DNA of 64,000 nucleotides from positions 3,973,035 to 4,037,034 of the forward strand of contig NZ_CP156660.1 in the NCBI RefSeq assembly GCF_039851975.1. Direction: 5' to 3'. The position numbers and the translations under genes were made by a program. How positions within the stretch are numbered: position 1 is the first letter of the stretch; each line of letters opens with the position of its first letter. The notes beneath the pieces were generated by a model. The model was not told where the DNA came from, searched no databases, and saw only the letters and a program-made list of their open reading frames with translations. The DNA is from Desulfoscipio sp. XC116. Lineage in GTDB: Bacteria > Bacillota > Desulfotomaculia > Desulfotomaculales > Desulfallaceae. Shown here in pieces: positions 24,851 through 38,128 of this stretch.

Positions 24851-25165
24851 TTACATTCCCCTTTTATAAATCGATTTTCCCACACTGTCGATATGTTTTT
24901 TTAGTTCTTCATTCATAATATCGTTGCAATTCACAATATCGAAAAAGTATGGCAATGGATATTCTTCATTTAGATCGTCACTTAGCCTTCTTACTGTTTT
25001 TCTGTCGACTTTTTCACCCACTAGGGCAAGGTCTACATCTGATCCCTTTTTATAATTTCCCATGGCTCTACTGCCAAACAGAATGGTTTCCTCTATTTCT
25101 GAATACTTTTTTACGGCATCCATTATATAATTAAGATCTCTTTCCAGCAGCCCGTACATTTTCAT
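24851..25165 (-). CDS. mntA: MNT-type nucleotidyltransferase (antitoxin)
   Basis: A 104-residue minimal nucleotidyltransferase with the signature ILFGSRAMGNYKKGSDVDLA (GSRxxG...GSDxDL, residues 30-48). In the HEPN/MNT toxin-antitoxin module MntA neutralises the HEPN RNase by AMPylating or oligoadenylating it. It overlaps the HEPN gene by 4 nt (ATGA). The GS and DxD residues are intact, so catalytic activity is expected. Confidence 0.85.
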   Translation of the reverse strand: MKMYGLLERDLNYIMDAVKKYSEIEETILFGSRAMGNYKKGSDVDLALVGEKVDRKTVRRLSDDLNEEYPLPYFFDIVNCNDIMNEELKKHIDSVGKSIYKRGM

Positions 25166-25563
25166 AACTCCTCAATTAGTTTTGCATACAGTTTTTTTAA
25201 TTCAGGGAAATAAGCCAGAACGATATCCCCAGTCATTCTTTTCGCCAGATTTTCATCATAAGTATGAACAATTAAATTTCTATCCGCCAGAGCATCAATC
25301 CAAATATGTCCGTCCTCAATTAACCCTGTTTGATAAGCTTGTTTTATTGTTTCTCTAGGGCTTTTCGGGCTAAAGCCTAAAGCTTCAAGATAGTCTTTCA
25401 TCAGTTTCCATGACAGTTCAAAAGCAATTTCAAATAATTGTATAATGCCGGCTCGTTCTATTTCTGTATTGATGGGCTGATCAATATATTTACTTAATGA
25501 TTGGAACGATTTTTCAAAATTAATGAATCGCTGTCTCCATCTTGTGTCTTTTAATTGATTCAT
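25162..25563 (-). CDS. hepT: HEPN-family toxin (HepT/HI0074-like)
   Basis: The start is set at the ATG following AAAGGAGG; an ATG six codons earlier lacks such a site. The 133-residue all-helical protein of the nucleotidyltransferase substrate-binding/HEPN family has the RNase motif RNLIVH (R-x4-H) followed by TYDE. The pair with the 3' MNT gene forms a toxin-antitoxin module. The chain LFEIAFELSWKLMKDYLEAL is typical of the HI0074 branch. Confidence 0.85.
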   Translation of the reverse strand: MNQLKDTRWRQRFINFEKSFQSLSKYIDQPINTEIERAGIIQLFEIAFELSWKLMKDYLEALGFSPKSPRETIKQAYQTGLIEDGHIWIDALADRNLIVHTYDENLAKRMTGDIVLAYFPELKKLYAKLIEEL

Positions 25564-25593
25564 TTGAAGACCTCCTTTCAAACCATAAACAGT

Positions 25594-25773
25594 TTACACT
25601 CTTCCAATTTGCCCATCCATGAGTCTTACCTTTATTCCTCTGGGATGTGTCGGAGATTTTGTCAAAATATCTTTAACGACTCCGCGCGTCCTTTTTCCCG
25701 TCCTCTGATCTTTTTTCAAAACAATATCCACAGTTATTCCCGCATAAATATCTTTTCTATTTTTACCATCCAT
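25594..25773 (-). CDS. ywbE: YwbE family protein
   Basis: A 59-residue protein matching YwbE closely: MDGKNRKDIYAGITVDIVLK, then TRGVVKDILTKSPTHPRGIK and a VRLMDGQIGRV end. AGAGGAGA precedes the ATG. It lies between the YusI-like gene and the HEPN/MNT pair, all leftward with short gaps. The family is conserved in Firmicutes and Proteobacteria but has no assigned role. Confidence 0.88.
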   Translation of the reverse strand: MDGKNRKDIYAGITVDIVLKKDQRTGKRTRGVVKDILTKSPTHPRGIKVRLMDGQIGRV

Positions 25774-25871
25774 TAAAAAACCGATCTCCTCTTGACTTAT
25801 CCCCCTTGTACCAGTTAGGGACAGGCGCTTGCCGGATTGGTTCATCTCAAATGCCGGGCTTGGTGTTCCCG

Positions 25872-26240
25872 CTATTGGCCGTATTGAGCAAACGCTTCCT
25901 CCCAATCCTTTTCTTTAAAACCAATCAGCACTTTTTCACCGTTAGTTAATATGGGGCGTTTAACCAGCATACCGTCGGAGGCTAGAAAGTCGTATAAATC
26001 CTCCTCCTTTGCGGTCTTTATAATATCTTTTAACCCAAGTTCTTTGTATTTTGCCCCTCTGGTGTTAAATAACTTTTCTATCTCTAAGCCACTCTTCTGA
26101 TGCAAATCAATCATTTCCTCCCGGGTGGGTCGCTCGTGCACAATATGACGAGTCTGATAGACGATACCTTTTTTGTAAAGCCAATCCTTGGCTTTTTTAA
26201 CAGTACCTCACCTGGGGTAATCGAATAAAAGCCACGACAT
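25872..26240 (-). CDS. YusI/Spx-ArsC-like thioredoxin-fold protein with UGA at the catalytic Cys (candidate selenoprotein)
   Basis: Translating from the ATG at 26240, preceded by GGGAGG at 6 nt, gives MSWLLFDYPR, then TGA at codon 11, then GTVKKAKDWLYKKGIVY and a complete ArsC/Spx-family protein of 122 codons. In homologues the residue at this point is the redox Cys of YPKCGT. Thus UGA replaces exactly the catalytic Cys. An 8-bp hairpin with a GGA loop starts soon after, at bacterial-SECIS distance. The alternative is a nonsense mutation of TGC/TGT, leaving a 90-residue fragment from 26141. The rest of the frame is intact and well conserved, which favours selenocysteine. Confidence 0.7.
26177..26195 (-). 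promoter_or_regulatory. candidate bacterial SECIS hairpin
   Basis: On the minus strand AAAGCCAA pairs perfectly with TTGGCTTT around a GGA loop. Twenty nucleotides separate the UGA (26208-26210) from the loop, and the loop starts with G; both agree with published bacterial SECIS criteria (16-37 nt, G within the first two loop bases). The stem also encodes conserved residues AKDWL, so coincidence is possible. Confidence 0.5.
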
Positions 26241-26305
26241 GTTTTTCCTCCCATTTTTCCATTAATAATTTAAAATTTTTCATTATAATACAACATTAAT
26301 AGCTC

Positions 26306-26560
26306 TTAATCCAGCCCCCTGCCAATGTGTATTACTTTTGATATAAGCATCGGGATCCGACTTCCCGCCCTCCAACCGGTTGATGGAATCCTCTTTACCG
26401 GCATGAAAACCACAGTTTCGCCGATGGAATCAGCCTCAATGCGTCCCACCTTGATATCCCTTTCCATATACCTCTCTCGCCGGGCTAGGCGGTAATACTC
26501 CCGGTAAACCTCTTCGCTTACGGGCACCGATTCCCGACCAACTTTTACAACTCTGGTCAT
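26306..26560 (-). pseudogene. sigma-like phage-type protein, frameshifted
   Basis: The 84-residue frame begins with MTRVVKVGRESVPVSEEVYR, the usual N-terminus of small sigma-70-like regulators of Firmicute mobile elements. After FMP the alternative frame continues sensibly as KEDSINRLEGGKSDPDAYIK and further, so a one-base indel near 26397 has broken the gene. A terminator-type hairpin lies upstream, as with the other two sigma-like genes in this window. Confidence 0.55.
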
Positions 26561-26623
26561 TTGCCAACTCCTCCTTTCAGGTTTTGTGGGGAAGGAGCCG
26601 AAACCGAAAAAAGGACAAAAAAA

Positions 26624-37156: not shown

Positions 37157-37712
37157 ATCCTTCTACGGCCTGTCTAAAACACCGTTCTCCCGGGACATCC
37201 CAACGGATCAGTTGTACCAATCGCTGATGCTAGATGAGACACTGGGCCGATTGGAATATGCCGCCCGTAGGCAACTTTTCGCCGTGGTTACCGGTGACTG
37301 CGGTACCGGTAAAACAACCACCATCCGCCTGTTCAAGGCCTCTTTAAATCCGGCCATGTTCATGGTGATGTATCTGGCGGACTCCAAACTTACCCCCCGG
37401 CATTTCTACAAGGGCCTATTGGAACAGCTAGGCTGTGAAGCCAAGTTTTATCGCGGCGACGCCAAGCGTAAACTGCCGCACCTGGACCGTTCCCAAGTCG
37501 GGGAATATATTAATCGGCACCTGGCTTATGCCGGTGCCGAACACGATATCTTTTCAGATAATGCGGTTGATCAGGTGTTCCGGTATTCCAGCGGTGCAGT
37601 CAGGCTTGTTAACAAAGTCTGCACCCATTGCTTGCTCTATGGAGCTCAAAACGGTCGTCGGATTATTGATGATCACATGGTGAAGTTGGTTATCCAGGGA
37701 GAATTGTTATAA
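37149..37712 (+). CDS. ExeA/TnsC-like AAA ATPase with internal deletion
   Basis: Only 187 residues, against about 265-270 for the family. Residues 1-115 carry FYGLSKTPFSRDIPTDQLYQ and Walker A TGDCGTGKTTTIR; then the chain jumps from GDAKRKL straight to PHLDRSQVGEYINRHLAYAG and the normal end. The missing roughly 80 residues should contain Walker B (DEAH-like) and sensor 1. The frame is kept. The ATPase is predicted to bind but not hydrolyse ATP, so the transposon is likely defective. Confidence 0.75.
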   Translation: MFESFYGLSKTPFSRDIPTDQLYQSLMLDETLGRLEYAARRQLFAVVTGDCGTGKTTTIRLFKASLNPAMFMVMYLADSKLTPRHFYKGLLEQLGCEAKFYRGDAKRKLPHLDRSQVGEYINRHLAYAGAEHDIFSDNAVDQVFRYSSGAVRLVNKVCTHCLLYGAQNGRRIIDDHMVKLVIQGELL

Positions 37713-37795
37713 TTCTCCCTTCCCCGGGCCGGTGGGCACTAAGTCCGTCAATTCACGGACAACTAACACCGTCTATTGCTGGACGTTACAGATCG

Positions 37796-38128
37796 TCAGT
37801 AACAATACGGAGGCTTTTCCGAACGGCGGCAGGTATCAACGTATTCTTCCCATAAGAGCTTTAGTGTCACACCGCTTTTCAAAAGTTCCTTGTGGACGTA
37901 ATCGTAATCAGGAGTGACAAGAACAGGCACCTGTGATTCCTCTGGGAATAGCTGTTGGCGCAGTTCCTGATCGTTCAAGGAATTCAGGGAATCTTTGAAA
38001 ACCGGATGGTCCTGCAACGCCTTAAAAACCTTTGCCACCGTGTTTCTGGACACTTTCAGGGTATTCGCAATTCTCCGCTGGCTATAGCCCTTAGTGCGAA
38101 GCTGCAAAATTTGTTTTTCTTTGGACAT
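37796..38128 (-). pseudogene. second IstA-type transposase, N-terminal remnant
   Basis: The frame begins MSKEKQILQLRTKGYSQRRI with an HTH (ANTLKVSRNTVAKVFKAL) and ends GVTLKLLWEEYVDTCRRSEK before a stop at the transposon boundary. It belongs to a different IstA branch from the 34.5 kb copy and points the other way. The catalytic domain is absent. Confidence 0.7.

Follow-up and report, generated by a model that had tools for sequence, protein, structure and literature searches.

Selenoproteins related to ArsC are already known, and their description has grown over several papers. In 2005 they were reported as 14 UxxS sequences (PMC1088965), U being selenocysteine (Sec). In 2006 an ArsC-like selenoprotein was listed for Desulfotalea psychrophila, with a distant homologue in Desulfuromonas acetoxidans, and the cited list for Desulfotomaculum reducens has no ArsC-like entry (PMC1794560). 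The passages cited from 2008 count 77 UxxS and 42 UxxC sequences, together with 'Arsenate reductase 2' (cd03032), also UxxC (PMC2398784), and tables in reviews hold an 'Arsenate reductase' with UxxS (TIGR00014) and an 'Arsenate reductase-like protein' with UxxC (NF041106) (PMC13188914, PMC9312934). In the cited parts of PMC13188914 the motif UxxV occurs just once, for another family, TsoY. A second point of comparison is OseR of C. difficile, an O2-responsive repressor of the YusI subfamily with CxxV and not CxxC, which keeps flavodiiron and reverse-rubrerythrin genes repressed under anaerobic conditions, and which oxidation is believed to release; by the account in that paper, how YusI-type proteins act is not known (PMC11481553). 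Here we describe a gene of Desulfoscipio sp. XC116, located in a 64,000-nucleotide stretch of contig NZ_CP156660.1 (positions 3,973,035 to 4,037,034), referred to below as the window. On the comparative evidence it is almost certainly a selenoprotein gene, with UGA codon 11 decoded as Sec, and it belongs to a group of YusI-type proteins that have Sec and no Cys.

The gene lies on the minus strand (25872-26240), with an ATG at 26240 and a TAG that ends at 25872, and has 122 codons before the stop. If its single TGA (codon 11, 26210-26208) is counted as one residue, the product is a protein of 122 residues, MSWLLFDYPR-U-GTVKKAKDWL... The motif GGGAGG (26247-26252), which resembles a ribosome-binding site, begins 12 nt ahead of the ATG. 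An earlier note, made from the sequence alone, had claimed that the frame runs upstream to such an ATG, broken by one TGA only, and that an annotation pipeline would truncate the gene. Both claims are confirmed: a standard open reading frame (ORF) call gives only the C-terminal 89 residues, from a GTG start (26141-25872). In the alignment with homologues the TGA falls on the first Cys of the CxxC motif of the family. The motif YPKCGT, which the note gave for this site, is correct as the family form, but the window protein reads YPR-U-GTV: the second Cys is lost as well, and Val stands in its place.

The family models and the predicted fold agree on an ArsC/Spx-like protein with a thioredoxin fold. 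The window protein matches Pfam ArsC with 68.8 bits (cut-off 24) and the NCBIfam model TIGR01617, the Spx/MgsR-related ArsC family, with 98.7 bits (cut-off 75.05). It stays below the cut-offs of the glutaredoxin-type arsenate reductase TIGR00014 (42.1 bits, cut-off 106.05), canonical Spx NF002459 (52.1 bits, cut-off 123) and ArsC_rel_Se_1, NF041106 (26.4 bits, cut-off 85), and on these scores a classical arsenate reductase and a canonical Spx were rejected. Pfam Glutaredoxin scores 20.1 bits, below its cut-off of 22.9, and the N-terminal part is glutaredoxin-like. AlphaFold models the protein with a predicted local distance difference score (pLDDT) of 93.5 and a predicted template modelling score (pTM) of 0.85, and residue 11 sits immediately ahead of helix 1 (residues 12-23). 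The closest solved folds are the ArsC-related 3gkx, 2m46 and 3fz4, with template modelling (TM) scores of 0.83-0.91 (best 3gkx, 0.91) and 35-44% identity.

Among sequences, the nearest are the YusI-type proteins of Bacillaceae and Clostridia. The window protein is 46-56% identical to 36 aligned homologues (L046 aside), of which we take the Bacillus rows to be YusI, and it has the KRPI motif and the NTSG/NTRG loop in common with them. It differs in that CxxC is the usual motif of these proteins (76 of 78), whereas the window protein has Sec at the first Cys and Val at the second. Spx has the same superfamily and fold (TM about 0.7-0.8), but its identity to the window protein is only 20-24%. The column of the RNA-polymerase-binding Gly of Spx, presumably Gly52, appears to be Glu in the window protein when this is aligned to 3l78 and read by eye. 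The label 'YusI-type' used here is taken from the earlier note and from PMC11481553, and not from a direct match to YusI.

The genome (4.26 Mb, 100% complete) contains the machinery for Sec. A selB gene (386 bits, cut-off 242) directly adjoins selA (615 bits, cut-off 268), there is a tRNA-Sec (67.1 bits, cut-off 47) whose anticodon is TCA according to ARAGORN, and selD is present in two copies (403 and 376 bits, cut-off 125), both of which contain a TGA in frame. A second Rfam match to tRNA-Sec (48.3 bits, cut-off 47) is a tRNA-Ser by ARAGORN. Lack of this machinery had been named as a ground for giving up the selenoprotein proposal, and that ground falls away.

Conservation of the TGA was followed in two sets, a relatives set of 150 genomes (match threshold E <= 0.001) and a draw of 398 genomes from the phylum (E <= 1e-15). 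Fifty genomes of the relatives set have a match; 24 of these, among them the genome of the window, have TGA as the redox codon. Every full-length sequence of this set with at least 61% identity has TGA (12/12, again counting the window's), as do both further ones in the phylum draw. The phylum draw has 72 matching genomes, 18 of them with TGA, of which 14 are new, which brings the number of genomes with TGA at this site to 38. The TGA noted in the matches of G420 and G306 terminates the gene itself and was not counted as a Sec codon; L031, a remnant in G064 without the Cys region, is excluded from every UGA count. Three of the six other genomes of the same genus (G003, G004, G006) have no match at E <= 0.001. 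The homologues thus include the expected Cys/UGA pairs, and close relatives carry TGA and not TGC or TGT. As a particular case, G062 (L021, TGC) and G078 (L024, TGA) are of one genus and have nearly identical proteins, a recent exchange of Cys and Sec; separately, one contig of G460 (L153) bears two UTTC-type copies, each with TGA, at a distance of about 2.3 kb.

The gene is also intact and under selection, contrary to what would be expected of a decaying copy. Downstream of the UGA the ratio of nonsynonymous to synonymous substitution (dN/dS) is 0.04-0.12 in six pairs. For the nine codons upstream, the proportion of synonymous differences (pS) is 0.62 and of nonsynonymous differences (pN) 0.17, all 66 pairs among 12 sequences being taken together. 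On either side of the UGA the gene therefore looks translated and selected.

The UGA copies go together with SelB, which scores above cut-off in 37 of the 38 UGA genomes, compared with 19 of the 55 in which the site has no UGA (Fisher p 9e-11, an optimistic value since the genomes are kin). The contrast comes from the phylum draw (18/18 against 18/54, p 2e-7, with the same reservation), the relatives set alone being weak for this purpose because 136 of its 150 genomes have SelB. A reading of the codon is available for 25 of the 55, and all 25 have Cys; for the remainder, no TGA is reported within the match. Two of the 55 have matches that miss the codon (G185 and G323) and one (G493) has a TAA inside. 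The p-value is 2.5e-10 without G185 and G323, and 1.6e-10 if G126, whose match is at the edge of the threshold, is added. Cys controls came from a pattern scan of the genome contigs with patterns built on Cys, which kept 80 rows, 78 with Cys and two with UGA. On a tree of 85 sequences the UGA/Cys label changes nine times (8-9 over the bootstrap trees), and at least six of these changes are forced by the starred branches.

The last element is a putative bacterial selenocysteine insertion sequence (SECIS), the hairpin AAAGCCAA-GGA-TTGGCTTT (26177-26195, minus strand; GGA loop at 26187-26185). Its stem of 8 bp is perfect, as the earlier note had described; counted from the TGA, the stem begins at a distance of 12 nt and the loop at 20 nt. 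A G in the small apical loop is described for bacterial SECIS hairpins in the cited passage of PMC1088965. A strict test was applied, asking for at least five Watson-Crick pairs, a loop of 3-7 nt with G in one of its first two positions, and a loop start 13-30 nt after the codon. Such a hairpin is found in 32 of 39 UGA loci (22/24 from the relatives, 10/15 from the phylum draw), as against three of 78 Cys homologues, where its positions are scattered. This count includes two UGA loci, L028 and L029, whose frame is broken after about 50-60 codons and which are left out of the tree and the Cys counts. The distance from the codon to the start of the loop is 20 or 23 nt in 29 of these 32 loci, 19 nt in two and 29 nt in one. 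Across the window, 28 TGA codons have at least eight open codons before and at least 60 after them, and two of the 28 have such a hairpin; the other frame (37435-37917, plus strand) looks non-coding by eye. An Rfam scan of 25600-26600 gave one match, sub-threshold and unrelated.

Codon usage adds to this. In the 12 genes with UxTV, the codon six after the TGA (Ala) is always GCC and the next (Lys) always AAG (12/12 each), while codon +8, although it encodes D, A, N or E, has T as its last base in 11 of 12. There are 43 other codons on which all 12 genes agree (42 invariant residues and the TGA), and a single codon is used in only three of these, the TGA among them. Judged by these codons, the hairpin bases are conserved beyond the needs of the protein in the UxTV genes. 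The innermost pair in 17 aligned sequences is A-U in 14, G-C in one, U-A in one and unpaired in one, and the stem that the alignment indicates as shared has about six pairs. A second group of Spx-like selenoproteins (UTTC/URTC; L032-L037, L163, L164) has a hairpin of its own, CGAAAGC-GTG-GCTTTCG or a close variant, with the loop 23 nt after the UGA.

A number of observations weigh against this interpretation. Seven of the 39 UGA loci fail the strict test (L018, L024, L137, L155, L157, L161, L162), three of them in the window's own clade; L018 passes once G-U pairs are allowed, and L157 and L161 have, by eye, a stem in place with one G-U. The hairpin that passes in L153, with its loop at 29 nt, is out of register. 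The test recovers only one of two selD controls and is hence incomplete. The outermost of the eight pairs occurs in the window gene alone (1/17) and the next in 12 of 17, and two-sided changes are seen in only one of the eight stem pairs. Compared with synonymous recoding, the fold energy of the window gene ranks 30 in 1000, which is only modestly unusual; seven other UxTV genes rank 32-114, L026 100, L033 144 and L024 593 per 1000. To these may be added the kinship of the genomes in the SelB comparison, one UGA genome without SelB above cut-off (G076, 84% complete), and broken copies of the gene in three related genomes (G064, G012, G109). Set beside the machinery, the conservation of the TGA and the linkage to SelB, they leave the earlier proposal of a selenoprotein with UGA at the redox Cys well borne out.

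The window protein has not just exchanged Cys for Sec. In the 85-sequence tree, calculated with the four motif columns left out, a branch with support 98/97 sets it and 18 others apart from the rest. The tree took 26 of the 80 rows of the contig scan, one of which, L046, duplicates L014 and was dropped; it includes L111 (UGA, UTTC), which counts neither towards the 39 hairpin loci nor towards the 38 genomes. All 19 members of the clade have UGA, and the residue three after the Sec is Val in 16, Ala in two and Ser in one. Cys is absent elsewhere from the matched stretch (0/19), and from the few residues before the stop, as read. By contrast, the second Cys is kept by all of the other 19 UGA sequences and by 76 of the 78 Cys homologues. 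The simple reading would be that Sec took the place of the first Cys in this clade and that the second Cys disappeared. Sec appears to be obligatory here, as far as the sequences tell, since no member has Cys at the site or elsewhere. The centre of the clade is the order that holds an uncultured Desulfotomaculum metagenome-assembled genome (MAG; L046), and further members belong to other families of the phylum. Apart from these, L071, from a Clostridium MAG, is a homologue with CSTV, an OseR-like motif, whose matched frame contains one stop codon.

On this basis, we propose that SelB and tRNA-Sec would decode UGA codon 11, with the hairpin 20 nt downstream serving as SECIS. The product would be a YusI-type thioredoxin-fold protein of 122 residues, with Sec11 as its only chalcogen side chain of the Cys/Sec type. 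Without any Cys in the protein an internal Se-S bond is impossible, so an outside thiol would have to resolve the oxidised selenol. We infer from the sequence a chemistry of one selenol, and the protein may thus be a mono-selenol redox protein and not an oxidoreductase of the CxxC type; it could act in the sensing of peroxide or O2, or provide a reductase step in the defence against oxidation. What it does in the cell is a guess, for which two possibilities are considered.

The one to which we would give an even chance is a selenoenzyme that uses an outside thiol, such as a glutaredoxin-like reductase acting on peroxides or on proteins in selenenylated or thiolated form. The glutaredoxin-like N-terminal part fits this, in spite of its score below cut-off, and so does the view, in the cited part of PMC9312934, that redox reactions are the task of most prokaryotic selenoprotein families. 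Neighbours that reduce O2, or the ferredoxin-linked and seemingly O2-sensitive enzymes, named by eye, at three loci described below, would suit a role in repair. On the other hand, the low score with the arsenate reductase model TIGR00014 speaks against that particular activity, and no specific neighbour points to an enzyme activity. No ars genes were recognised among the neighbour genes read.

The other possibility is suggested by OseR. The window protein would be a regulator that senses O2 or redox state through its selenol, the reduced form repressing rubrerythrin and flavodiiron genes and oxidation of Sec11 releasing them. The analogy starts from the motif, UxxV in the window protein and CxxV in OseR by the text of PMC11481553, and from the YusI subfamily, in which OseR has Cys where the window protein has Sec. 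This likeness is taken from the description of OseR, the protein for which regulation is reported.

The gene neighbourhoods bear on this. They comprise 22 clade regions, several ending early at contig ends: the 19 tree members and three more assigned to the clade by identity, namely the remnant in G064 and the broken copies in G012 and G109. The controls were the 78 Cys loci with flanks of up to 3 kb. Seven of the 22 regions have a rubrerythrin gene in the same orientation at a distance of about 190-670 bp downstream, and two have a flavodiiron-type flavoprotein gene downstream, compared with 0/78 and 1/78 of the Cys loci (families by Pfam); the queries, one rubrerythrin and one flavoprotein, were drawn from the genera concerned, a choice that makes hits there more likely, and other types in the controls were possibly missed. 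Among the 16 UxxC UGA regions one has a flavodiiron-like neighbour (L197), and there is another at L111. Each of the seven genomes of the rubrerythrin-adjacent genus has 6-9 rubrerythrin match stretches, and adjacency by chance is therefore unlikely. However, the nine of 22 loci that adjoin such genes amount to about two events, the seven rubrerythrin cases being all from one genus and the two flavodiiron cases from another, while other clade members adjoin unrelated genes and the window locus has neither neighbour. The adjacency to O2-related genes is thus a lead and not a proof. By analogy with OseR, a selenol sensor of O2 is possible, and we regard it as unlikely to be the actual role of the window protein. 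The wider proposal, that the whole Cys-free clade would be Sec-based transcription regulators sensing O2 or peroxide, the Sec counterpart of OseR controlling rubrerythrin and flavodiiron genes in anaerobes, is put forward a little more tentatively still.

Two further observations were made on the neighbourhoods. G064 (L031/L041/L186) is a complete genome with SelB that has only a broken copy of the gene, which still adjoins rubrerythrin. At L182, L183 and L184 a UTSA/UTSS-type gene begins 13-21 bp after what is by eye a 2-oxoacid:ferredoxin oxidoreductase-like subunit, possibly as an operon; L181, which is related to them, does not have this arrangement.

Much further behind come the readings in which codon 11 is not Sec at all. 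A genuine stop, leaving a pseudogene or an 89-residue product, would agree with the standard ORF call and with the three broken copies, but it is very hard to reconcile with the conservation of the TGA at this codon in different genera and families at such low dN/dS, with selection on the codons ahead of it, and with the linkage of UGA copies to SelB, and we consider it highly improbable. Insertion of another residue, by suppression or reassignment, in favour of which no evidence was found, is equally improbable given a tRNA-Sec with a TCA anticodon and a site that is the redox Cys of the homologues.

Around the window gene itself, a DUF2196 gene (25594-25905, minus strand) overlaps its 3' end, and a DUF2196-like stretch (56% identity over 64 residues) lies near a UGA gene of the UxxC type in L201 (3693-3884). 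Next to the DUF2196 gene of the window (at 24851-25581, minus) is a pair of genes for a nucleotidyltransferase and a nucleotidyltransferase substrate-binding protein, weakly HepT-like, which may be a toxin-antitoxin-like module. The other neighbour is an ABC transporter, identified by eye.

Compared with the ArsC-like selenoproteins already tabled, the clade is alike in superfamily, in the position of Sec at the first Cys of the motif and in the SECIS-like hairpin shortly downstream. It differs in its UxxV/A/S motif and lack of Cys, and the window protein scores far below the cut-offs of TIGR00014 and NF041106. In the literature searched (titles, abstract openings and cited passages) there is no Sec-containing YusI/Spx protein and no UxxV ArsC-like selenoprotein. 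What is new, judged against that portion of the literature, is therefore a UxxV, Cys-free clade of YusI-type proteins in which Sec is apparently obligatory. To our knowledge, no transcription regulator has been described with genetically encoded Sec as its sensing residue.

A standard ORF call reads this gene as truncated, and would do so for the whole clade. If Sec is obligatory in the clade, then selenium chemistry appears to be the point of these proteins, rather than an upgrade. And if the link to OseR were true, genetically encoded selenocysteine would enter oxygen sensing.
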